From NCBI RefSeq assembly GCF_000526495.1, contig NZ_JAGE01000002.1:1-64000 (forward strand): DNA of 64,000 nt, read 5' to 3'. The position numbers and the translations under genes are program-made. Origin of the DNA: Ruminiclostridium josui JCM 17888 (lineage in GTDB: Bacteria > Bacillota > Clostridia > Acetivibrionales > DSM-1351). Under the pieces are notes generated by a model. That model was not told the DNA's origin. It did not search any database and saw only the letters and a list, made by a program, of their open reading frames with translations. Below, one piece after another: positions 4,374 to 61,729 of this stretch (positions within the stretch are counted from its first letter, which is position 1; every line of letters starts with the position of its first letter).

Positions 4374-4722
4374 TAATGCTACTGGTTTTGACCAGATTTA
4401 CATTGCATGTGGTTATACCGATTTGCGCCAAGGAATTGATGGCCTTGCTGGGATGGTTCAAAATCAATTTCATTTAAATCCTTTTCAAAATATCCTGTTT
4501 CTTTTCTGCGGAAGAAAAACAACAAGGATAAAAGGTCTTCTTTGGGAAGGTGATGGTTTTGTATTACTATACAAGCGTTTAGAAGGCGGAAGATTTCAAT
4601 GGCCTCGCAGTGAAGCAGAAATGAAAGAAATCACACCTAAACAATTCCGATGGCTAACAGAAGGTCTTGCCATTGAGCAAGCAAAAGCTGTTAAGAAAGT
4701 GTCTCCCAGCCGTATTATCTAG
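4366..4722 (+). CDS. tnpB: IS66 Orf2 / TnpB accessory protein
   Basis: 118 residues of the IS66 Orf2 family, recognised by GYTDLRQGIDGLAG near the N-terminus, LFLFCGRKTTRIKGL in the middle and GRFQWPR toward the end. The length is normal for the family. The biochemical role is not well defined, but it is required with TnpA and TnpC. It starts inside the end of tnpA. Confidence 0.92.
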   Translation: MFNNATGFDQIYIACGYTDLRQGIDGLAGMVQNQFHLNPFQNILFLFCGRKTTRIKGLLWEGDGFVLLYKRLEGGRFQWPRSEAEMKEITPKQFRWLTEGLAIEQAKAVKKVSPSRII

Positions 4723-4838
4723 TGGATAACTCTTTTGAAATTGTGCAAAACCTCACATATTTTCCGTAATTATCCACGACTTTTAAAACTTGAGACTTTT
4801 CTATTCCATTGTGTCTTTTTTCATGATATTGTAGATTC

Positions 4839-6455
4839 ATGGATAAAACATTTACAGAACTGGAATTAACTAAATATAGTAAAAAAGATATTGTTCAGCT
4901 TTTTCTGAAGCAGCAGGCCATACTTGAAAAACAAAGCACTCAATTAGAAGAAATGAATAAAAACATCACTCTTCTGATAGAAGCAAATAAAATTGGAAAG
5001 CAGAAAAGATTTGGACGTTCATCTGAAAAGATGGTATATGATGAGCAGATGGAACTGTGCTTTAACGAAGCAGAAGTAACTGCTGCCGGAAAGCTTATTG
5101 AAGAACCTGAATTTGATGAAGTATGTCCTAAGCCATATAAGCGAAAAAAAGCAAAAGGAAAACGTAATGAGGACTTAAAGGATTTGCCTGTCAGTATCAT
5201 TGAACATACTCTTAATGACGATGAGCTAAGATCTATTTTCGGAGACACATGGAAACGACTGCCTGATGAAGTGTACAAGCGCCTTCAATTTCACCCTGCT
5301 ACATTTGAGGTGGAAGAGCATCATGTTGCAGTATATGCAGGAAAGGACAATCAAACCATTGTAAAGGCAAACCGCCCTGTTGATCTATTGCGCAACAGTA
5401 TTGTAACGCCAACTCTGGCAGCTGGTATACTAAATGGAAAATATATAAATGCTCTTCCTCTATACAGGTTGGAACAGGAGTTTAAGAGAAATGACATACA
5501 TATATCCAGACAGGTAATGGCAAACTGGACAATACAATGTGCCGAGAGGTACCTGTCACTATTGTATGATAGAATGCATCAGGAACTCTATCAGTGCAGC
5601 GTATCACAGGCTGATGAGACACCAGTGCTTGTTTCAAAGGATGGTAGATCTGCCGGTTCTAAAAGCTACATGTGGGTATATCGTACGGGCAAAATGTACG
5701 AGGCTCCGCCCATTATCCTGTATGATTACCAGAAAACGCGTAAAGCTGATCATCCAAGAGAATTTCTCAAGGGGTATAAAGGGATTATTGTAACCGATGG
5801 ATATGAAGTTTACCACAAGCTTGAGAAAGAAGAACCAGACATAAAGATAGCAGGATGTTGGAGTCATGCCCGTCGTAGGTTTGCGGATGTTGTCAAGACA
5901 ATGGACAAAGAAACCGCTAAAGATACATTAGCATATGCAGCATTAAAACAAATAGCTTTGATATATAAAATAGATAATGATCTTGTGGAGCTATCTCCAC
6001 AAGAAAGAGTCGCTAGACGTAAGCTTCTTGTAAAGCCACAAGTAGAAGCTTTCTTTGCATGGGTTAAAGAGCATAGAAGTGATGTTCCATCACAATCAGA
6101 AACAGGCAAAGGCTTTACCTATTGCCTAAATCAAGAAAAATATCTGAGAACATTTCTTGAAAATGGTTACGTACCTCTGGATAACAATGCTACAGAGGGA
6201 GCTATCAGAGGCTTCTGCATAGGAAAAAACAATTGGCATTTGATAGACACAGTTCAAGGAGCCCAGGCAAGCGCAATAATTTACAGTATTGCAGAAACAG
6301 CTAAGGCTAATAACTTAAAACCATACCATTACTTTAAATATTTACTGCAGCAGCTTCCCCAACATATGGATGATAAGGATACATCCTTTATAGACAAGCT
6401 GCTTCCTTGGTCAGAAGATTTGCCTGAAGAATGCAGAAAAGCAACTCAAAATTAG
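4839..6455 (+). CDS. tnpC: IS66 transposase TnpC (DDE)
   Basis: 538 residues, full length for IS66 transposases. An N-terminal coiled coil (about residues 18-55) is followed by a basic linker, a zinc-binding/HTH region and the DDE catalytic core. The acidic residues are visible in SQADETPVLV, IVTDGYEVYH and NNATEGAIRG. It catalyses cut and strand transfer at the terminal repeats. The frame is intact, so the element could still be active. Confidence 0.95.
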   Translation: MDKTFTELELTKYSKKDIVQLFLKQQAILEKQSTQLEEMNKNITLLIEANKIGKQKRFGRSSEKMVYDEQMELCFNEAEVTAAGKLIEEPEFDEVCPKPYKRKKAKGKRNEDLKDLPVSIIEHTLNDDELRSIFGDTWKRLPDEVYKRLQFHPATFEVEEHHVAVYAGKDNQTIVKANRPVDLLRNSIVTPTLAAGILNGKYINALPLYRLEQEFKRNDIHISRQVMANWTIQCAERYLSLLYDRMHQELYQCSVSQADETPVLVSKDGRSAGSKSYMWVYRTGKMYEAPPIILYDYQKTRKADHPREFLKGYKGIIVTDGYEVYHKLEKEEPDIKIAGCWSHARRRFADVVKTMDKETAKDTLAYAALKQIALIYKIDNDLVELSPQERVARRKLLVKPQVEAFFAWVKEHRSDVPSQSETGKGFTYCLNQEKYLRTFLENGYVPLDNNATEGAIRGFCIGKNNWHLIDTVQGAQASAIIYSIAETAKANNLKPYHYFKYLLQQLPQHMDDKDTSFIDKLLPWSEDLPEECRKATQN

Positions 6456-8115: not shown

Positions 8116-8249
8116 CAGAGGCCAGGTTGAGGCTATAGATGCACTGTTTGGTTATACAGTTAACATCGGCAAAGGAAAACCTACCAATTCAGAATTTATT
8201 GCAATGATTGCCGATAAGCTGAGATTGGAATTGAAAGTAAGCTAAGAGG
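8116..8249 (+). repeat. attR-side copy of the 134-bp spo0A direct repeat
   Basis: Second copy of the spo0A tail, including its TAA. In the spo0A frame there is a TGA seven codons upstream and no initiation site, so it is not a gene. The terminator immediately downstream suggests that this is the original host 3' end, displaced when the element entered. Confidence 0.85.
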
Positions 8250-35700: not shown

Positions 35701-35866
35701 AATTCCAACGAAATCTAATAGGCCTATTAAAGTGCGCTCAAATTCCACAAAATAGGGAATTAACTACAGAGTAATCAACAATTTAACAACAAAAAATATT
35801 GGAGCAAAAGAAGGGAGCATCGCTGACTACTTTTTAAGTAGTTTTGCGACACTCCCTTATTTACTA

Positions 35867-35913
35867 TGGTCGGAATGACGTGACTTGAACACGCGACCTC
35901 TTGCACCCCAAGC
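35867..35913 (-). tRNA. 3' half of a tRNA-Pro(GGG)-like gene: prophage attachment site
   Basis: Read on the minus strand, this is the 3' part of a tRNA: the loop TTGGGGT with the anticodon stem strand GCAAG, variable loop AGGTC, a T arm GCGTG-TTCAAGT-CACGT, acceptor strand CATTCCG, then ACCA. The 5' half is absent; sequence upstream (35914 on) does not fold into D or acceptor arms. The integrase gene begins 175 bases away. This is the displaced end of a tRNA target, so an intact tRNA is expected at the far prophage junction, outside the window. Confidence 0.8.
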
Positions 35914-35982
35914 ATTAAACCTTCTTTTATCCAAGTTTAATAAATTTTAATAAACCTTTAAAAATCAATATATACATAGGCG

Positions 35983-35998
35983 TGTAACAATAGTTACC
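35983..35998. promoter_or_regulatory. Operator-like palindrome near the attachment site
   Basis: TGTAACAATAGTTACC matches the operator at 37653-37668 in 15 of 16 bases. Its place between the integrase 3' end and the att site is unusual for a repressor site and may link repression to excision. Confidence 0.55.
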
Positions 35999-36087: not shown

Positions 36088-37272
36088 TTACTTTGCTTTC
36101 CTTCGTTTATTGAAATCAATTACCTTTGCTATCTCTATTTCTTTTGATTTTTCTTCTATTTTTTCCATTTCATCATCAAGACCTTTAAATACGTCGTCGA
36201 TCTTGCTCGCAGTCGTTTTGGTATCGCTTAACATTGTCCCGTATATATCTAATGTGGTAGTTGATTCGTCATGACCAAGAGCCTCCTGAAGTTCTTTTAG
36301 ATTCATCCGGCCTTTACTCATATAGACAAATGTGTGGCGAAACATATGCGGAGTTACGTGTAGACCTGTTTTTTTATTAATTCTATCTAAAACACTATTC
36401 AAACTATCAGGCTTCATTAAATGCCCATTTTCTGAAGGGAATATTAAATCTAATTTTTTTAAATCTGTATTAAACAATGCAGGATTAACCCTTTCCAACA
36501 GCATTTCTTTTTGCTTAGAAAGAAAGTATATTGCTTCTTCAGATAAAGGAACATAATGCACTTTGGCACTTTTAGTATCACCAATTCCATTTAAGCTATT
36601 TGATTCATCCACAATAATTCTTCGATTTCTGTAATCTATATCTGAATACTTTAGAGCTAAAATTTCACCACGCCTTAGCCCAGTAACTAGCATAAACCTA
36701 AAACACCAATACCATCTTGTTTCTTTCAATGCATCAAATATTATTTTAAGTTCTTGGATAGTTAAAGTTTTTCGTGGTTTAGCTTGTTTGTTTGGAATTT
36801 CTATATCTTTCACTGGATTCTCGGCAATTATTTTCTCTTTAAAAGCCTGACTAAATGCAATATGCAATACTTTTCTTGTGTGTTTCATAGTCCATGTGGA
36901 TAAGCCTTTTTTATTCATACTAGAAATGATTTCCTGTATGTCAACAGAAGTTATTTTTTTAATTAAATTAGATCCGATTTGTGGTTTAATATGCTTTTCC
37001 CATAAAGTTTTATATTGTTCATACGTTGCAGTTTTCTTTAAAGGCTCAACATATACATTCAACCATCTGTCAAACCAATCATTTACTTTGTATTTGGATT
37101 TTACTATTGGTAAGTTTGCCACTTCTTTAATTTTTTCTTGGAGTTCTGGCAAGGTCTTTGCAGTTCTAGTTCGTAAATCGCCATCTTTCATTTGTCGCCA
37201 TTCATAACCACCATTTGGCAATTTCCTTATAGTTCCCATACCATTAGGATTTCTCGTTCTGTTTTTAGCCAT
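36088..37272 (-). CDS. int: Prophage tyrosine integrase (Tn916/phage Int type)
   Basis: 394 residues, complete. An N-terminal AP2-like arm-binding domain (NGMGTIRKLPNGGYEWRQM), a SAM-like core-binding domain (about 60-160) and the catalytic domain follow. Active-site residues: Arg in TGLRRGEIL, Lys in the beta-hairpin DTKSAKVHYVPL, HMFRH, and Tyr in TLDIYGTML. It should catalyse integration at the adjacent tRNA-Pro site. It starts four bases after the XRE repressor gene, so both are on one leftward transcript. Confidence 0.95.
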   Translation of the reverse strand: MAKNRTRNPNGMGTIRKLPNGGYEWRQMKDGDLRTRTAKTLPELQEKIKEVANLPIVKSKYKVNDWFDRWLNVYVEPLKKTATYEQYKTLWEKHIKPQIGSNLIKKITSVDIQEIISSMNKKGLSTWTMKHTRKVLHIAFSQAFKEKIIAENPVKDIEIPNKQAKPRKTLTIQELKIIFDALKETRWYWCFRFMLVTGLRRGEILALKYSDIDYRNRRIIVDESNSLNGIGDTKSAKVHYVPLSEEAIYFLSKQKEMLLERVNPALFNTDLKKLDLIFPSENGHLMKPDSLNSVLDRINKKTGLHVTPHMFRHTFVYMSKGRMNLKELQEALGHDESTTTLDIYGTMLSDTKTTASKIDDVFKGLDDEMEKIEEKSKEIEIAKVIDFNKRRKAK

Positions 37273-37276
37273 AAAA

Positions 37277-37495
37277 TTACCTCCTAGAATCAGATAACCC
37301 TACTAAATAATCTAAAGTAACATCAAAATATAAAGCGTAAGCTTTCATTATAGATAATGTTGGTTCCCGTTTACCGTTTTCGTAATATCCAACAGCTACA
37401 TGTGAAACGCCCAATATTTCTGCCATTTCTCTTTGTGATAAACCTTTTTCGCCTCTTAAACTCAAAACTCTACTTCCAAACACTTCTAAAGTCAT
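37277..37495 (-). CDS. Short XRE-family repressor
   Basis: 72 residues, essentially one helix-turn-helix: LRGEKGLSQREMAEILGVSHVAVGYYENGKREP, then FDVTLDYLVGLSD. It lacks the C-terminal dimerisation or RecA-cleavage domain of CI-type repressors, so induction probably works by another route, such as an antirepressor. Divergent from the Cro-like gene across a 200-base operator region, it is the best candidate for the lysogeny repressor. Confidence 0.85.
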   Translation of the reverse strand: MTLEVFGSRVLSLRGEKGLSQREMAEILGVSHVAVGYYENGKREPTLSIMKAYALYFDVTLDYLVGLSDSRR

Positions 37496-37537: not shown

Positions 37538-37553
37538 GTTAACTTTTGTTACC
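37538..37553. promoter_or_regulatory. Operator O1 (GTTAAC-TTTT-GTTACC)
   Basis: One mismatch from the consensus GGTAAC-N4-GTTACC, 43 bases before the repressor start codon on the minus strand, where it could autoregulate the repressor-integrase operon. Confidence 0.5.
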
Positions 37554-37615: not shown

Positions 37616-37644
37616 TTGACAATATTTATACAAGGGTGTAATAT
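37616..37644 (+). promoter_or_regulatory. Early rightward promoter TTGACA-N17-TAATAT
   Basis: Consensus -35 TTGACA (37616-37621) and -10 TAATAT (37639-37644) with exactly 17 bases between. Operator O2 begins 9 bases after the -10, across the likely transcription start. Confidence 0.75.
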
Positions 37645-37652
37645 CAAAACGT

Positions 37653-37668
37653 GGTAACAATAGTTACC
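37653..37668. promoter_or_regulatory. Operator O2 (perfect GGTAAC-AATA-GTTACC)
   Basis: A perfect 16-bp palindrome-type site at the predicted start of the early rightward transcript, 31 bases before the Cro-like start codon. Binding there would block the early promoter. Confidence 0.7.
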
Positions 37669-37698: not shown

Positions 37699-37917
37699 AT
37701 GGTTAAATTTAAAGAGCTTTCAAGGCTAATGGCAACATATGAAATAAACAAGTCTGAGCTTGCACAAATCATTGGCAAGGCTCCTGCATCAGTGACAGGT
37801 AAAATGTCCGGTAAAATCGAATGGAAGCGTCCCGATATGGTAAACATCACAACATATTTTAAGAAATTTGACCCTAATATAACAATGGAAAAAATTTTTT
37901 GCACAGATGGTAACTAA
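37699..37917 (+). CDS. Cro-like HTH protein (DUF739 type)
   Basis: 72 residues. [39 protein letters not shown] has the layout of small phage HTH regulators of the DUF739 group. AAGCGAGGTG precedes ATG 37699. First gene on the rightward early transcript, it is the expected antagonist of the repressor. Its stop codon lies inside operator O3. Confidence 0.8.
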
Positions 37918-37924
37918 AGTTACC
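37909..37924. promoter_or_regulatory. Operator O3 (perfect GGTAAC-TAAA-GTTACC)
   Basis: Second perfect match to the operator consensus, overlapping the stop codon of the Cro-like gene and 45 bases before the MazF start. It could act as a roadblock controlling the toxin-antirepressor gene. Confidence 0.65.
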
Positions 37925-37969: not shown

Positions 37970-39121
37970 ATGCATAACAAAATAAAGCGCGGAGACATAT
38001 TTTACGCTGACCTCAATCCATATATTGGGTCAGAACAAGGTGGCGTCCGGCCGATTCTAATAGTTCAAAACGATATAGGTAATAAGTACAGTTCGACTAT
38101 TATAGCAGCAGTTATAACTTCACAGACAAAAACAAAGCTACCGACTCACGTCAAAATTAAAGGTTACGGGTTAAACAAAGATTCTACTATATGCCTAGAA
38201 CAGATAAGGACAATTGATAAATGTAGACTTCGTGAATATGTAGGGCGTCTGGATGATGAACTGATGAAAAAGGTTGAAGGTGCAATTGATATTAGCTTCG
38301 GGCTTCAATACAAAAGGGAGGGACAAGCAGTGTCAGATATTATACCGGTTGAATTTAAAAATCAAAGAGTTCTAACTACACAGCAACTAGCTGATGGTTA
38401 TGGAGTAGCAATCAAGCGAATCAGTGAAAATTTTCAAAGAAACAGAGAACGCTATCAGGAAGGAACCCATTTCTTTAAGTTGGAAGGAGAAGAATTAAGG
38501 AGTTTTAAGGAATCCGCAAATTGCGGAATCGCTCCAACGGTTAATTATTATTACCTCTGGACAGAAAAAGGTGCATTGCTTCACGCTAAGTCACTCAACA
38601 CAGATAAAGCATGGGAAGTATATCAGGAACTTGTTGATACATATTTCAGGACAAAGGACGCTGTCCCTCAAACACAAATTCAGATCTTACAGCAGGCTAT
38701 TGCAGTATTAGCCGAACAGGAAAAGGAACTTGCAGTTACAAAGCAAATTGCCATTTCTGCTCAGTCGGAGGCTACTGCTGCAAAAGAAACCATCAAAGAA
38801 ATTAAAGAGTCTCTCGCTGAACTACCGAAAGACCAGTGGCGCAAATATGTAAATGCCAGTATATCCGATATCGTTAAATCAGGAAAAAGTAAACATAATT
38901 ATGAAGGCGTTTGGAATGAAAGTTATAAACTTCTTGAGGAAAAAACAAGAGCTGATTTAGGAACCAGAGTACGTAACAAAAGACGCCGTTTATCCGATGC
39001 GGGGGCCACTAAATCTGTTATTGATAGTTTCTGCAAACTTGATGCAATAGAAGAGGACAAGTACCTAAAAGAGATTTTTACCAATATTATTCAGAAAATG
39101 AGAATTAAATATTTAGTTTAA
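37970..39121 (+). CDS. MazF-type endoribonuclease fused to an ORF6N-ORF6C antirepressor
   Basis: 383 residues from ATG 37970 (GGAAGTGGGG ahead). Residues 1-118 form a full MazF/EndoA domain: [26 protein letters not shown] with the catalytic Arg, AAVITSQTK with the catalytic Thr, LEQIRTIDK, and a last helix ending in FGLQY. After a short linker, residues about 125-215 are an ORF6N domain ([37 protein letters not shown], split here) and residues about 230-380 a coiled, ORF6C-like end. MazF cleaves mRNA; ORF6N proteins act as phage antirepressors. An internal GTG at 38330 behind AAGGGAGG would also give the antirepressor alone. No MazE partner is visible. Confidence 0.85.
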
Positions 39122-39136
39122 AGGTGGTGATATCCT

Positions 39137-39649
39137 TTGAATGAAGCTCTTGAACTCTACCAAAACAACATCAAACTTACTACATACGTCGCAAAGAAAT
39201 GGCTCTCAAACACTCCACAAATGTACTATGAAGAAATATTGGCAGAAGCTCGTATAGGTCTTTGGAAGGCCTGTAAGACGTTTGATAAGTCACGAGGATT
39301 TGCCTTTGCAACATACGCAACTAGGGTAATTTCAAACGAAATCGGATGTTTTATGAGAAAGCAAAAGAAACATCTAAATATAGTCTCGTTGGATTCATCT
39401 ATTGAAGGTGTAGACGAGACAGTCACCCTAATGGATTCTCTGGGTTGTGAACATGATTTCGATGGCGAATTAAACACAAAATCTATAATAACAAAACTCA
39501 ATAATTATCCGATTCTTAAAAGACTTGTCACTGGTGAAAAACAAAAAGATGTTGCTGAATCTGTCGGATTATCACAAGCCCAAATAAGCAGGATTTACAG
39601 TAAAGAGCGGAAGTTATTGGCAGCAGAGCTAAAGGTTCTTGCGGGTTAA
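39137..39649 (+). CDS. Sporulation-type sigma-70 family factor
   Basis: 170 residues from TTG 39137 behind AAGGTGGTG. Region 2 reads IGLWKACKTFDKSRGFAFATYATRVISNEIGCFMRKQ in the genome, with the same AxTF-D-x-S-(K/R)G-x3-ATYA-x-R-x-I-x-NEI-x3-(L/M)RK pattern as SigE/SigK. A short linker and a region 4 helix (QKDVAESVGLSQAQISRIYSKE) follow. Compact phage sigma factors of this kind are known in sporulating Firmicutes. It should redirect host RNA polymerase; target promoters are unknown. The next genes are a structured non-coding region and a Spo0A-domain protein. Confidence 0.82.
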   Translation: MNEALELYQNNIKLTTYVAKKWLSNTPQMYYEEILAEARIGLWKACKTFDKSRGFAFATYATRVISNEIGCFMRKQKKHLNIVSLDSSIEGVDETVTLMDSLGCEHDFDGELNTKSIITKLNNYPILKRLVTGEKQKDVAESVGLSQAQISRIYSKERKLLAAELKVLAG

Positions 39650-39654
39650 TCCTA

Positions 39655-40215
39655 AAGCCCGATACCACCCCCCAAGGAGGTGATGGTAAATGTGCCGGGA
39701 ATATAAAGCCGGCTGTCAAAAATATTTAATTTTTAGCACTCAAAAAATTATTACATTTATTCATTGGGACTAAAGGCGGTTGGATGTGCCGCCTTCATGG
39801 AGAAGTAGCATAAATAATGCTGGTGAAAAGCATAAAACCTTGATAAAGCAAAGGTGATAGTGGTAGCCAATCCATTCTTCTCCACAAAAAACAACAATGC
39901 CCGCCCCGACATATCGGGGCCCAAGGAAGAAAGATTGAAGTTCAGGTGTAAAGCGACCTGGAAAGGTGCTGGAGTGAACGGTCTACAGACGTGTGGATGG
40001 CCTGTGAAGGCGTAAAACAATAGGCTAACCGGCTCCCATGGGAAACTTAAGAATTCGAATGCCGTCAGCATGAGCTTCAATCGACCTTCCTGCCAAAACC
40101 CAAAAGCAAAGTAAACTACACGGGTATTCTAATTATTTATTTAGCTGTGGGTGGCTCAGGCTGCAGCTGTTGCCACCCGAAACCAAATCTAAATTCAATT
40201 CAAAATTAAATCTGG
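39655..40215 (+). ncRNA. Candidate large structured non-coding RNA
   Basis: No gene fits the 577 bases between the sigma factor and the Spo0A-like start, and base composition is much richer in G and C than nearby genes. Many stems can be seen: AAGGCGG/CCGCCTT (near 39774-39800), TGGAGAAG/CTTCTCCA about 80 bases apart, CCCCGA-CATA-TCGGGG, CAGGT/ACCTG, and GGGTGGC (40149-40155) with GCCACCC (40172-40178). Long-range pairs such as GGTAGCC with GGCTAACC also occur. Size, prophage setting and fold density recall the ROOL and GOLLD RNAs, but the class is not shown. A shorter RNA starting near 39760 is equally possible. Confidence 0.5.
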
Positions 40216-40226
40216 AGGTAATTTAT

Positions 40227-40730
40227 ATGCAAGTATCTATTAATGAGAGTGACAAGACCGTCACTATGGCTCTTGAAGATTTCTACAGGCATTTCACTTC
40301 TACAACTGCAAATGAGCCAATCAAAATCAATCAGAAGCATCAAGTTTGCAGTGGGGATATTGAAGTTGAAGTAACCGAATTTTTAGGTCAAATCGGTATG
40401 CCACGTAATATAAAAGGTTTTAACTTTATTAGGCAAGCAATTATTTCAACAATACAGAATCCACGCATCATTGATGGTATTACTAAAGAATTATATCCAC
40501 TTATAGCTAAAAATAATGGTACTACTCCCAGTAGGGCTGAGAGAGCTATCCGACATGCCATAGAAGTTACATGGGACAGGGGAAATCATGATGTAATTAA
40601 TTCGCTTTTTGGCTATACAGTTAGTACTAAAAAATACAAAGCAACCAACTCTGAATTTATTGCACTTATAGCAGATCATTTAAGGTTACAGTTTAAACAA
40701 GGGGGAGATGCAGTTGCCAGCGACATGTAG
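40227..40730 (+). CDS. Prophage Spo0A DNA-binding-domain protein without a receiver
   Basis: 167 residues from ATG 40227 behind TCTGGAGG. Residues about 46-160 match the Spo0A effector domain throughout: VTEFLGQIGMPRNIKG, ITKELYPLIAKNNGTTPSRAERAIRHAIEV with the recognition helix, LFGYTV, TNSEFIALIADHLRL. In the last 40 residues 25 are identical to the host spo0A tail at the start of this window. The N-terminal 45 residues are unrelated to a response-regulator receiver, so phosphorylation control is absent. Isolated Spo0A C-terminal domain is constitutively active on 0A boxes, so this protein may mimic or compete with Spo0A~P. Its stop is followed closely by the next gene. Confidence 0.9.
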   Translation: MQVSINESDKTVTMALEDFYRHFTSTTANEPIKINQKHQVCSGDIEVEVTEFLGQIGMPRNIKGFNFIRQAIISTIQNPRIIDGITKELYPLIAKNNGTTPSRAERAIRHAIEVTWDRGNHDVINSLFGYTVSTKKYKATNSEFIALIADHLRLQFKQGGDAVASDM

Positions 40731-61715: not shown

Positions 61716-61729
61716 CGAACATTTGTTCT
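61716..61729. promoter_or_regulatory. LexA/SOS box CGAACATTTGTTCT
   Basis: Matches the Gram-positive LexA consensus CGAAC-N4-GTTCG except for the last base. It is followed by TAATAT near 61738 as a possible -10 and precedes the gene starting about 61769. The 80-base gap before it is the only sizeable gap in this operon, consistent with an internal, damage-inducible promoter. Confidence 0.6.

Follow-up and report, generated by a model that had tools for sequence, protein, structure and literature searches.

What does it mean that a prophage carries a MazF-type RNase and a phage antirepressor in one uninterrupted reading frame? The question is raised by a gene in the window, by which we mean the whole stretch of 64,000 nucleotides that was analysed, namely positions 1 to 64,000 of contig 2 (880,602 bases) in the 4.47-Mb genome of Ruminiclostridium josui JCM 17888. 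The reading that we favour, with a probability of roughly 0.45, is that the gene encodes a phage lysis-lysogeny regulator for which two in-frame products would be made from one repressor-controlled cistron. Several other readings have to be weighed against it, and they are taken up below together with the evidence that bears on them.

The fusion gene and its protein

The gene is a single open frame from ATG to TAA (Table 1). Its first part matches the Pfam PemK_toxin profile with 112.7 bits against a cut-off of 23.1, over profile positions 1-109 of 109, that is, as a full-length domain. MazF of B. subtilis (4MDX/4ME7) aligns to fusion residues 5-112 with an E-value of about 3e-37, and Arg25 and Thr48 of that enzyme are described as catalytic in the accessible part of PMC7354611. 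As both residues are kept in the fusion, its MazF domain looks catalytically competent. The ORF6N domain in the second part reaches 75.3 bits against a Pfam cut-off of 27.8. Among PHROG families, phrog_1936 ('MazF-like growth inhibitor') spans fusion residues 1-152, and phrog_373 ('anti-repressor') spans residues 123-383 with an E-value of 2e-42.

An initial annotation of this DNA had described a MazF domain with its catalytic Arg and Thr that continues without a stop into ORF6N and ORF6C-like domains. All of this stands except for the ORF6C part: Pfam ORF6C gave no match to the fusion protein at E-values up to 1, and the C-terminus is 'PHROG antirepressor-like' at most. The protein nevertheless has the marks of a phage antirepressor, since an N-domain of that kind is present (ORF6N here, P22_AR_N in two other loci) and the gene adjoins a repressor candidate. 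An AlphaFold2 model of the fusion from an 18-row alignment reached a mean pLDDT of 53 and a pTM of 0.26, too low for the model to be of use.

Table 1. Features of the MazF-antirepressor locus and its surroundings (window positions).
Feature	Position	Strand	Evidence or remark
attL, 59-bp repeat	35856..35914		identical to contig 104978-105036 (attR)
Tyrosine integrase of prophage	36088..37272	-	Pfam Phage_integrase, E 4.4e-25
72-aa XRE/CI-like repressor candidate, single HTH	37277..37495	-	Pfam HTH_3, E 2.7e-16
Operator-like palindrome O1	37538..37553		1 mismatch to GGTAACnnnnGTTACC
Operator-like palindrome O2	37653..37668		exact GGTAACnnnnGTTACC; just after TTGACA-17-TAATAT, 37616-37644
72-aa Cro-like ORF, precedes fusion on same strand	37699..37917	+	weak HTH_26, E 0.0017, below cut-off
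Operator-like palindrome O3	37909..37924		exact GGTAACnnnnGTTACC; 45 bp before fusion ATG
MazF-antirepressor fusion gene	37970..39121	+	383 aa; ATG start, AAGGA upstream; stop TAA
PemK/MazF domain (residues 6-110)	37985..38299	+	Pfam PF02452, E 1.3e-32; 4MDX, E 3.2e-37
Catalytic Arg codon (R27 = Arg25 of B. subtilis MazF)	38048..38050	+	alignment; invariant in three fusions
Catalytic Thr codon (T50 = Thr48 of B. subtilis MazF)	38117..38119	+	alignment; invariant in three fusions
Internal Shine-Dalgarno (SD) GGAGG in linker	38317..38321	+	8 nt before GTG 38330
Predicted second product: antirepressor started at internal GTG, 263 aa	38330..39121	+	L192 start alignment; conserved SD-GTG
ORF6N domain (residues 127-208)	38348..38593	+	Pfam PF10543, E 4.7e-21
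Sigma-factor-like gene directly downstream of fusion	39137..39649	+	Pfam Sigma70_r2, E 5.3e-12

The prophage and the surroundings of the fusion gene

The fusion gene lies in a prophage of about 69.1 kb, which is bounded by 59-bp repeats; of these, the attR copy shares sequence with a complete tRNA-Pro(GGG) gene. The only domain of the repressor candidate is an HTH, and its 72 aa leave no space for a protease or cleavage domain. Palindromes of the type GGTAACnnnnGTTACC with up to three mismatches were found 23 times, against 14.4 expected. Apart from the three listed in Table 1, a fourth operator-like palindrome with 1 mismatch is present at 35983-35998, between attL and the stop of the integrase gene.

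The best consensus promoter (37616-37644) stands before the Cro-like ORF and next to 37653, in a scan that was overall at chance (10 found, 9.8 expected). In the initial annotation the fusion gene was guarded by O3, and a palindrome does stand upstream of its ATG; it overlaps, however, the end of the Cro-like ORF, and no strong promoter accompanies it. The simplest arrangement is therefore a rightward operon in which the fusion gene comes second. Control by LexA was also considered and rejected, as LexA-box-like sites in the window were at chance (9 found, 8.2 expected). The best of these sites, at 61716 in the prophage, has a single mismatch.

The sigma-factor-like gene has an 82% identical counterpart in the phage of contig L004, which is introduced below. 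Another phage gene, at 40170-40730 on the plus strand, contains the C-terminal DNA-binding domain of Spo0A (Pfam), with no receiver domain found; relatives of this gene are present in the prophage of genome G004 and in L003. At the other end of the window, identical 134-bp repeats, 8.1 kb apart, occupy positions 1-134, at the contig edge, and 8116-8249. They match the end of the Spo0A C-terminal domain and perhaps mark an element inserted at the 3' end of spo0A.

Relatives, distribution and origin of the MazF part

The same MazF part and linker (EGQ-type) stand in frame with an antirepressor in three distinct loci, the window included. The second locus (L020) is in G004, a genome of the same genus, and encodes the same protein as L003, the IMG/VR contig 2711768659_000002; the two are therefore counted as one. 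The third is on the metagenomic phage contig L004 (3300050334_000106). In G004/L003 and L004 the antirepressor is of the P22_AR_N plus ANT/KilAC type, whereas in the window it is of the ORF6N type; by these domain assignments, a single MazF module precedes antirepressors of two kinds. The join between MazF and antirepressor is, on this comparison, real, because the relatives carry the same MazF part on an unrelated antirepressor. A sequencing error or a chance frame was ruled out, the junction being open in the two other distinct loci at about 73% MazF DNA identity.

All three fusions lie to the right of an opposite-strand repressor-like gene and of small HTH-like ORFs, which were recognized by Pfam or by eye. 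The initial annotation had advised looking for the domain order elsewhere, and the two further loci, with their different antirepressor type (P22_AR_N plus KilAC), bear it out; neither of the signs that it named as telling against the fusion, a stop codon between the domains and a MazF domain inactive in all homologues, was seen in the relatives found. On L004, a 107-aa ORF (4663-4986, plus strand), with no Pfam match above the cut-off, is situated between the small ORFs and the fusion and overlaps by 4 bp with the fusion's upstream in-frame ATG; no counterpart was seen just before the window fusion.

The fusion is rare. It occurs in 2 of 58 genomes of the order (G000 and G004), and other MazF frames of more than 200 aa in that set (in G025, G046 and G051) proved not to be antirepressor fusions on reading, with Pfam applied for two of them. 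Only G000 and G004 were among the matches listed in a class draw of 391 genomes. A phylum draw of 398 genomes returned one, the window's own, at E <= 1e-60, a cut that could miss a fusion to another antirepressor; the standalone MazFs listed in the class draw score weaker. In INPHARED (50,697 records) P0001 matches 359 and P0002 151, and in PLSDB (72,556 records) 618 match, in both cases with none at 80% cover in one place, a test that would not catch a MazF fused to some third type of antirepressor. From 187 loci came 177 MazF-like frames, among which were three distinct MazF-antirepressor proteins; the pattern matches L151 and L153 were discarded for want of a MazF-like frame. Across 291 genomes, the matches listed in a survey of PF02452 fusions contained no frame longer than 172 aa. 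In the part of the open-licence literature that was covered, including the accessible parts of PMC2701414, PMC6929052, PMC10440598, PMC3995785 and PMC11323111, no description of a MazF-antirepressor fusion was found.

MazF is joined to other domains as well. Fusions with a TOPRIM-like C-terminus are encoded at L142:2359-3351 (plus strand) and L143:1908-2597 (minus strand), in two genomes of the order, with Pfam Toprim E-values of 0.078 and 0.0011, respectively, both below the cut-off. On an IMG/VR contig, L169:3941-4924 (plus strand) combines MazF with a Schlafen/AlbA_2 domain (E 1.2e-13).

The MazF parts of the three fusions share 75-77% protein identity, with dN of about 0.14. NG86 dS is 3.7 for one fusion pair and not computable for two; a dN this low against a high dS means that the MazF part has evolved under purifying selection. 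In a MazF tree of 122 rows and few columns, in which the bootstrap had not settled, the three fusions form one clade (support 100/98), the sister of which is the MazF of another Clostridia genome (L096; support 98/87); no MazE-like ORF was seen by eye beside L096. The host's chromosomal MazF groups with those of further members of the genus, Ruminiclostridium cellobioparum among them. Capture of the present host's MazF is not supported, as the fusion clade is apart from this Ruminiclostridium chromosomal clade.

The internal start and the linker

The initial annotation had pointed out a well-placed internal GTG from which the antirepressor alone could be made. Such a start is indeed present, and its SD and GTG are kept in all three fusion loci. 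The ATG of L192, a standalone antirepressor on another phage contig and the sole relative returned by the scan for a standalone antirepressor start, aligns with GTG 38330, and thus the conserved SD and start codon lie at the point where the short product has its native start. In a census of called ORFs of at least 100 aa over a 144-kb stretch, GGAGG was correctly placed at 8 of 1245 internal in-frame start codons, GTG 38330 among the 8. The RNA fold at the internal start has a z of -1.9. Because of the L192 start alignment and the conserved SD-GTG, the linker holds the ribosome-binding site (RBS) of the antirepressor itself, which translation coming from MazF would pass in frame. Two products, MazF-antirepressor and the antirepressor alone, are the natural prediction.

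The linker bases are AAGGGAGGGACAAGCAGTGTCAG in the window, AAAGGAGGGACAAGCAGTGTCAG in L003 and AAAGGAGGGACAAGTAGTGGCAG in L004. Bar one base, they constitute the 24-nt window with the highest conservation in the alignment of MazF plus linker. All three loci agree in 21 of its 24 columns, compared with 205 of 333 columns in the MazF body. The margin is narrow, as 20/24 windows are also present in the MazF body (starts at alignment columns 241-243). At residues conserved in all three loci, Met and Trp excluded, the same codon is used in 5 of 6 cases at the junction and in 18 of 72 in the MazF body. The bases at the fusion ATG (ATGAAAGGA..tGrGGTCATGCA) are also conserved in L003 and L004. The likeness of the linkers may stem from selection or from recombination at a shared stretch, and the conserved SD alone could account for most of the linker conservation. 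In such data, selection for the fused product as such is not separable from SD constraint or from recombination at the linker.

It is here that the main rival of our reading has its ground. Two ordinary neighbouring genes may have lost the stop between them, the antirepressor being translated from its own RBS and the fusion being incidental, without joint function. This would explain why the linker contains the antirepressor RBS, with a GTG where the standalone L192 starts, and it agrees with the standalone MazFs of many phage contigs, with the standalone ORF6N-type antirepressors of the genus and of phages, and with a single origin of the MazF part, which allows one historical accident. What such an accident does not lead one to expect is that no stop or frameshift has appeared at the junction in any of the three distinct loci, even though their synonymous sites are close to saturation or past it, and that the only length change of the linker among them is a whole codon. 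The junction is a weak test, since few linker codons are free of SD constraint. We regard the loss of a stop as a somewhat unlikely account, and it stays the main rival because the RBS alone constrains most of the linker.

The antitoxin question

The initial annotation reported no MazE, and the search agrees: with the host MazE as the query, neither the prophage nor L003/L004 yielded a credible MazE-like frame of at least 30 aa. The best prophage frame reached E 0.81 in phmmer and 0.042 in blastp, as against 3e-56 for the host MazE, which was recovered as the positive control; this search covered the MazE family only. An antitoxin paired with the toxin in an operon, as in type II toxin-antitoxin systems, was thus not found with the MazE query.

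The host chromosome encodes a 94-aa RHH protein (MazE by position) followed by a MazF that is 73% identical to the phage MazF domain. A MazF of the UACAU type can be neutralised by a non-cognate MazE, according to the accessible part of PMC10893535, which also recalls one pair without cross-neutralisation. Since the host has MazEF and non-cognate neutralisation is in print, the host MazE may, by analogy, buffer the phage protein. The initial annotation had named the short XRE or Cro-like proteins as possible antitoxins; the host MazE is the likelier putative antitoxin, because the host RHH protein adjoins a MazF so similar to the phage domain.

If the host MazE binds the phage protein, the MazF part might be chiefly a handle: an antirepressor bound by MazE would be inactive and would be freed when MazE falls under stress, and not via RecA. 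A repressor candidate that consists of a single HTH without a protease or cleavage domain suits such a route, as do the host RHH protein beside its MazF, the chance frequency of LexA-box-like sites, and the phi3T proteins, which act on MazE-MazF contacts as described in the part of PMC10769878 at hand. Even so, we think it unlikely. A mere handle has no need of the catalytic pair that is kept, an internally started antirepressor would escape MazE, the fusion MazF, for which MazE binding is hypothetical, falls outside the host MazF clade, and the prophage does contain a LexA-box-like site that has only one mismatch. Quite unlikely, in our estimate, is also a switch wired to MazE as a whole, in which the host MazE would restrain the fusion, loss of MazE would free RNase and antirepressor together, and the internally started antirepressor would set the threshold. 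Were it true, induction would follow the turnover of the antitoxin without any need for RecA, and exchangeable antirepressor modules would be placed behind a constant MazF sensor.

The initial annotation had further suggested an RNase that 'punishes loss of repression', in other words addiction, where loss of the repressor frees the RNase, the cell is killed or stalled and the prophage is kept; operator-like sites upstream of the gene and a competent-looking MazF would allow this, but it gains no support and is very improbable, given that the search of the prophage yielded no MazE-like antitoxin, that no labile antitoxin was found encoded with the fusion, that clean excision would presumably take the toxin gene along with the repressor, and that the host MazE would be likely to blunt the toxin.

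Predicted cleavage specificity

If the RNase acted without restraint during the lytic cycle and shared the UACAU specificity of its relatives, phage genes would be expected to avoid this motif. Against an expectation from synonymous-codon shuffles, over ORFs that were picked mechanically and of which some may be on the wrong strand, UACAU occurs 70 times in the prophage (70.9 expected; 68 ORFs of at least 100 aa), 83 times in the host flank (81.7 expected; 61 ORFs) and 27 times in part of the G004 prophage (27.0 expected; 33 ORFs). The repressor and integrase ORFs contain no UACAU sites, but both are short, and for the repressor ORF in particular such an absence says little. UACAU is not avoided, and this counts against wholesale mRNA destruction; the RNase should therefore be restrained or brief in its action, or recognize another motif, or be no RNase in practice. 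The 'RNase that opens the lytic switch' of the initial annotation is a putative one.

Other motifs were considered. A few pentamers, TCCTA and TACTA among them, are underrepresented in the two prophages but not in the genes of the host, with z from -2.2 to -3.6; among about 1000 pentamers such values have no weight as avoidance of an alternative cleavage motif. Pentamers that contain GATC are strongly depleted relative to synonymous shuffles in prophage and host genes of the 144-kb stretch, a pattern such as the action of a GATC restriction enzyme might leave.

It is highly doubtful that the fusion serves host shut-off by degrading host mRNA early and so favouring phage messages: the PHROG class of phage MazFs is 'moron, auxiliary metabolic gene and host takeover' and the position of the gene suggests early expression, but UACAU is as frequent in prophage genes as in codon-shuffled controls, just as it is in host genes.

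The proposed regulator

The favoured reading, a lysis-lysogeny regulator with two in-frame products, can be set out as follows. The long product, from ATG 37970, would be a MazF-type mRNA interferase joined to a phage antirepressor, and the short product, from GTG 38330, the antirepressor alone. In the lysogen the XRE repressor would act at the putative operators and hold the presumed operon off, and we propose that a dedicated antitoxin is therefore not needed. Any fusion protein that leaked would be mopped up by the host MazE, provided that it is neutralised in this way. When repression fails, or upon infection, the Cro-like protein and both products would appear early, in a ratio and with a timing that are conjectural. 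The antirepressor would then bind and disable the repressor, and the lytic state would be locked in. The tethered MazF, assuming that it is active and of the presumed specificity, would cut a limited set of RNAs at UACAU-type sites, with no wholesale destruction of messages; its physiological target is likewise a matter of conjecture.

Comparison with known systems

The MazF part is closest to the MazF/PemK interferases, exemplified by B. subtilis EndoA/MazF (4MDX, 4ME7), with which it shares the whole domain and the catalytic Arg and Thr. It differs from B. subtilis EndoA/MazF in that a 270-residue antirepressor tail is added, no MazE-like partner was detected in the prophage, and the gene is a phage gene beside a phage repressor. 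The remainder, which begins near the internal GTG and runs to the C-terminus, matches antirepressors of the ORF6N (PHROG 373) or P22_AR_N plus KilAC (PHROG 524/63) types. These are likewise found beside a repressor, and what sets the fusion apart from them is the extra MazF at its N-terminus. Repressor-antirepressor pairs have been noted to resemble toxin-antitoxin pairs (Makarova et al. 2009, PMC2701414, in the part accessible).

Among prophages, the Gifsy elements offer a parallel, in that their repressors are non-cleaved and are disabled by antirepressors (PMC3121763, accessible part), just as a candidate antirepressor faces a repressor without a cleavage domain here. The Gifsy antirepressors are, in contrast, small, LexA-controlled and located outside the immunity region, and the accessible part of PMC3121763 mentions no enzyme domain in them. 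In the C. difficile phage phiCDKH01, also a clostridial prophage, an XRE repressor controls downstream KilAC antirepressor genes; no MazF part is mentioned for that immunity region in the accessible text of PMC11172241. Campylobacter CJIE4 likewise has a prophage MazF without MazE, which was detected there as a protein, but it is encoded by its own gene next to the terminase and is unfused (PMC3995785, accessible part).

The closest functional likeness is with the arbitrium phage phi3T, in which MazF activity sways the choice between lysis and lysogeny (accessible parts of PMC10769878 and of the review PMC11323111). Its AimX, YosL and phi3T_93 proteins, together with the host MazEF, also tie a MazF ribonuclease to the lysis-lysogeny decision (PMC10769878, accessible part). 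According to the same source, phi3T tunes the MazF of its host by small binding proteins, whereas the prophage studied here has a MazF of its own, joined to the antirepressor. In the Bacillus phage the host MazF thus acts from outside the phage's own switch, while here the RNase domain is within the switch protein. The fusion gene, moreover, has an internal start from which the switch could be made free of the RNase, and its MazF module is found joined to either of two unrelated antirepressors. It thereby permits a clean test of what an RNase domain does to an antirepressor and of what a host antitoxin does to prophage induction.
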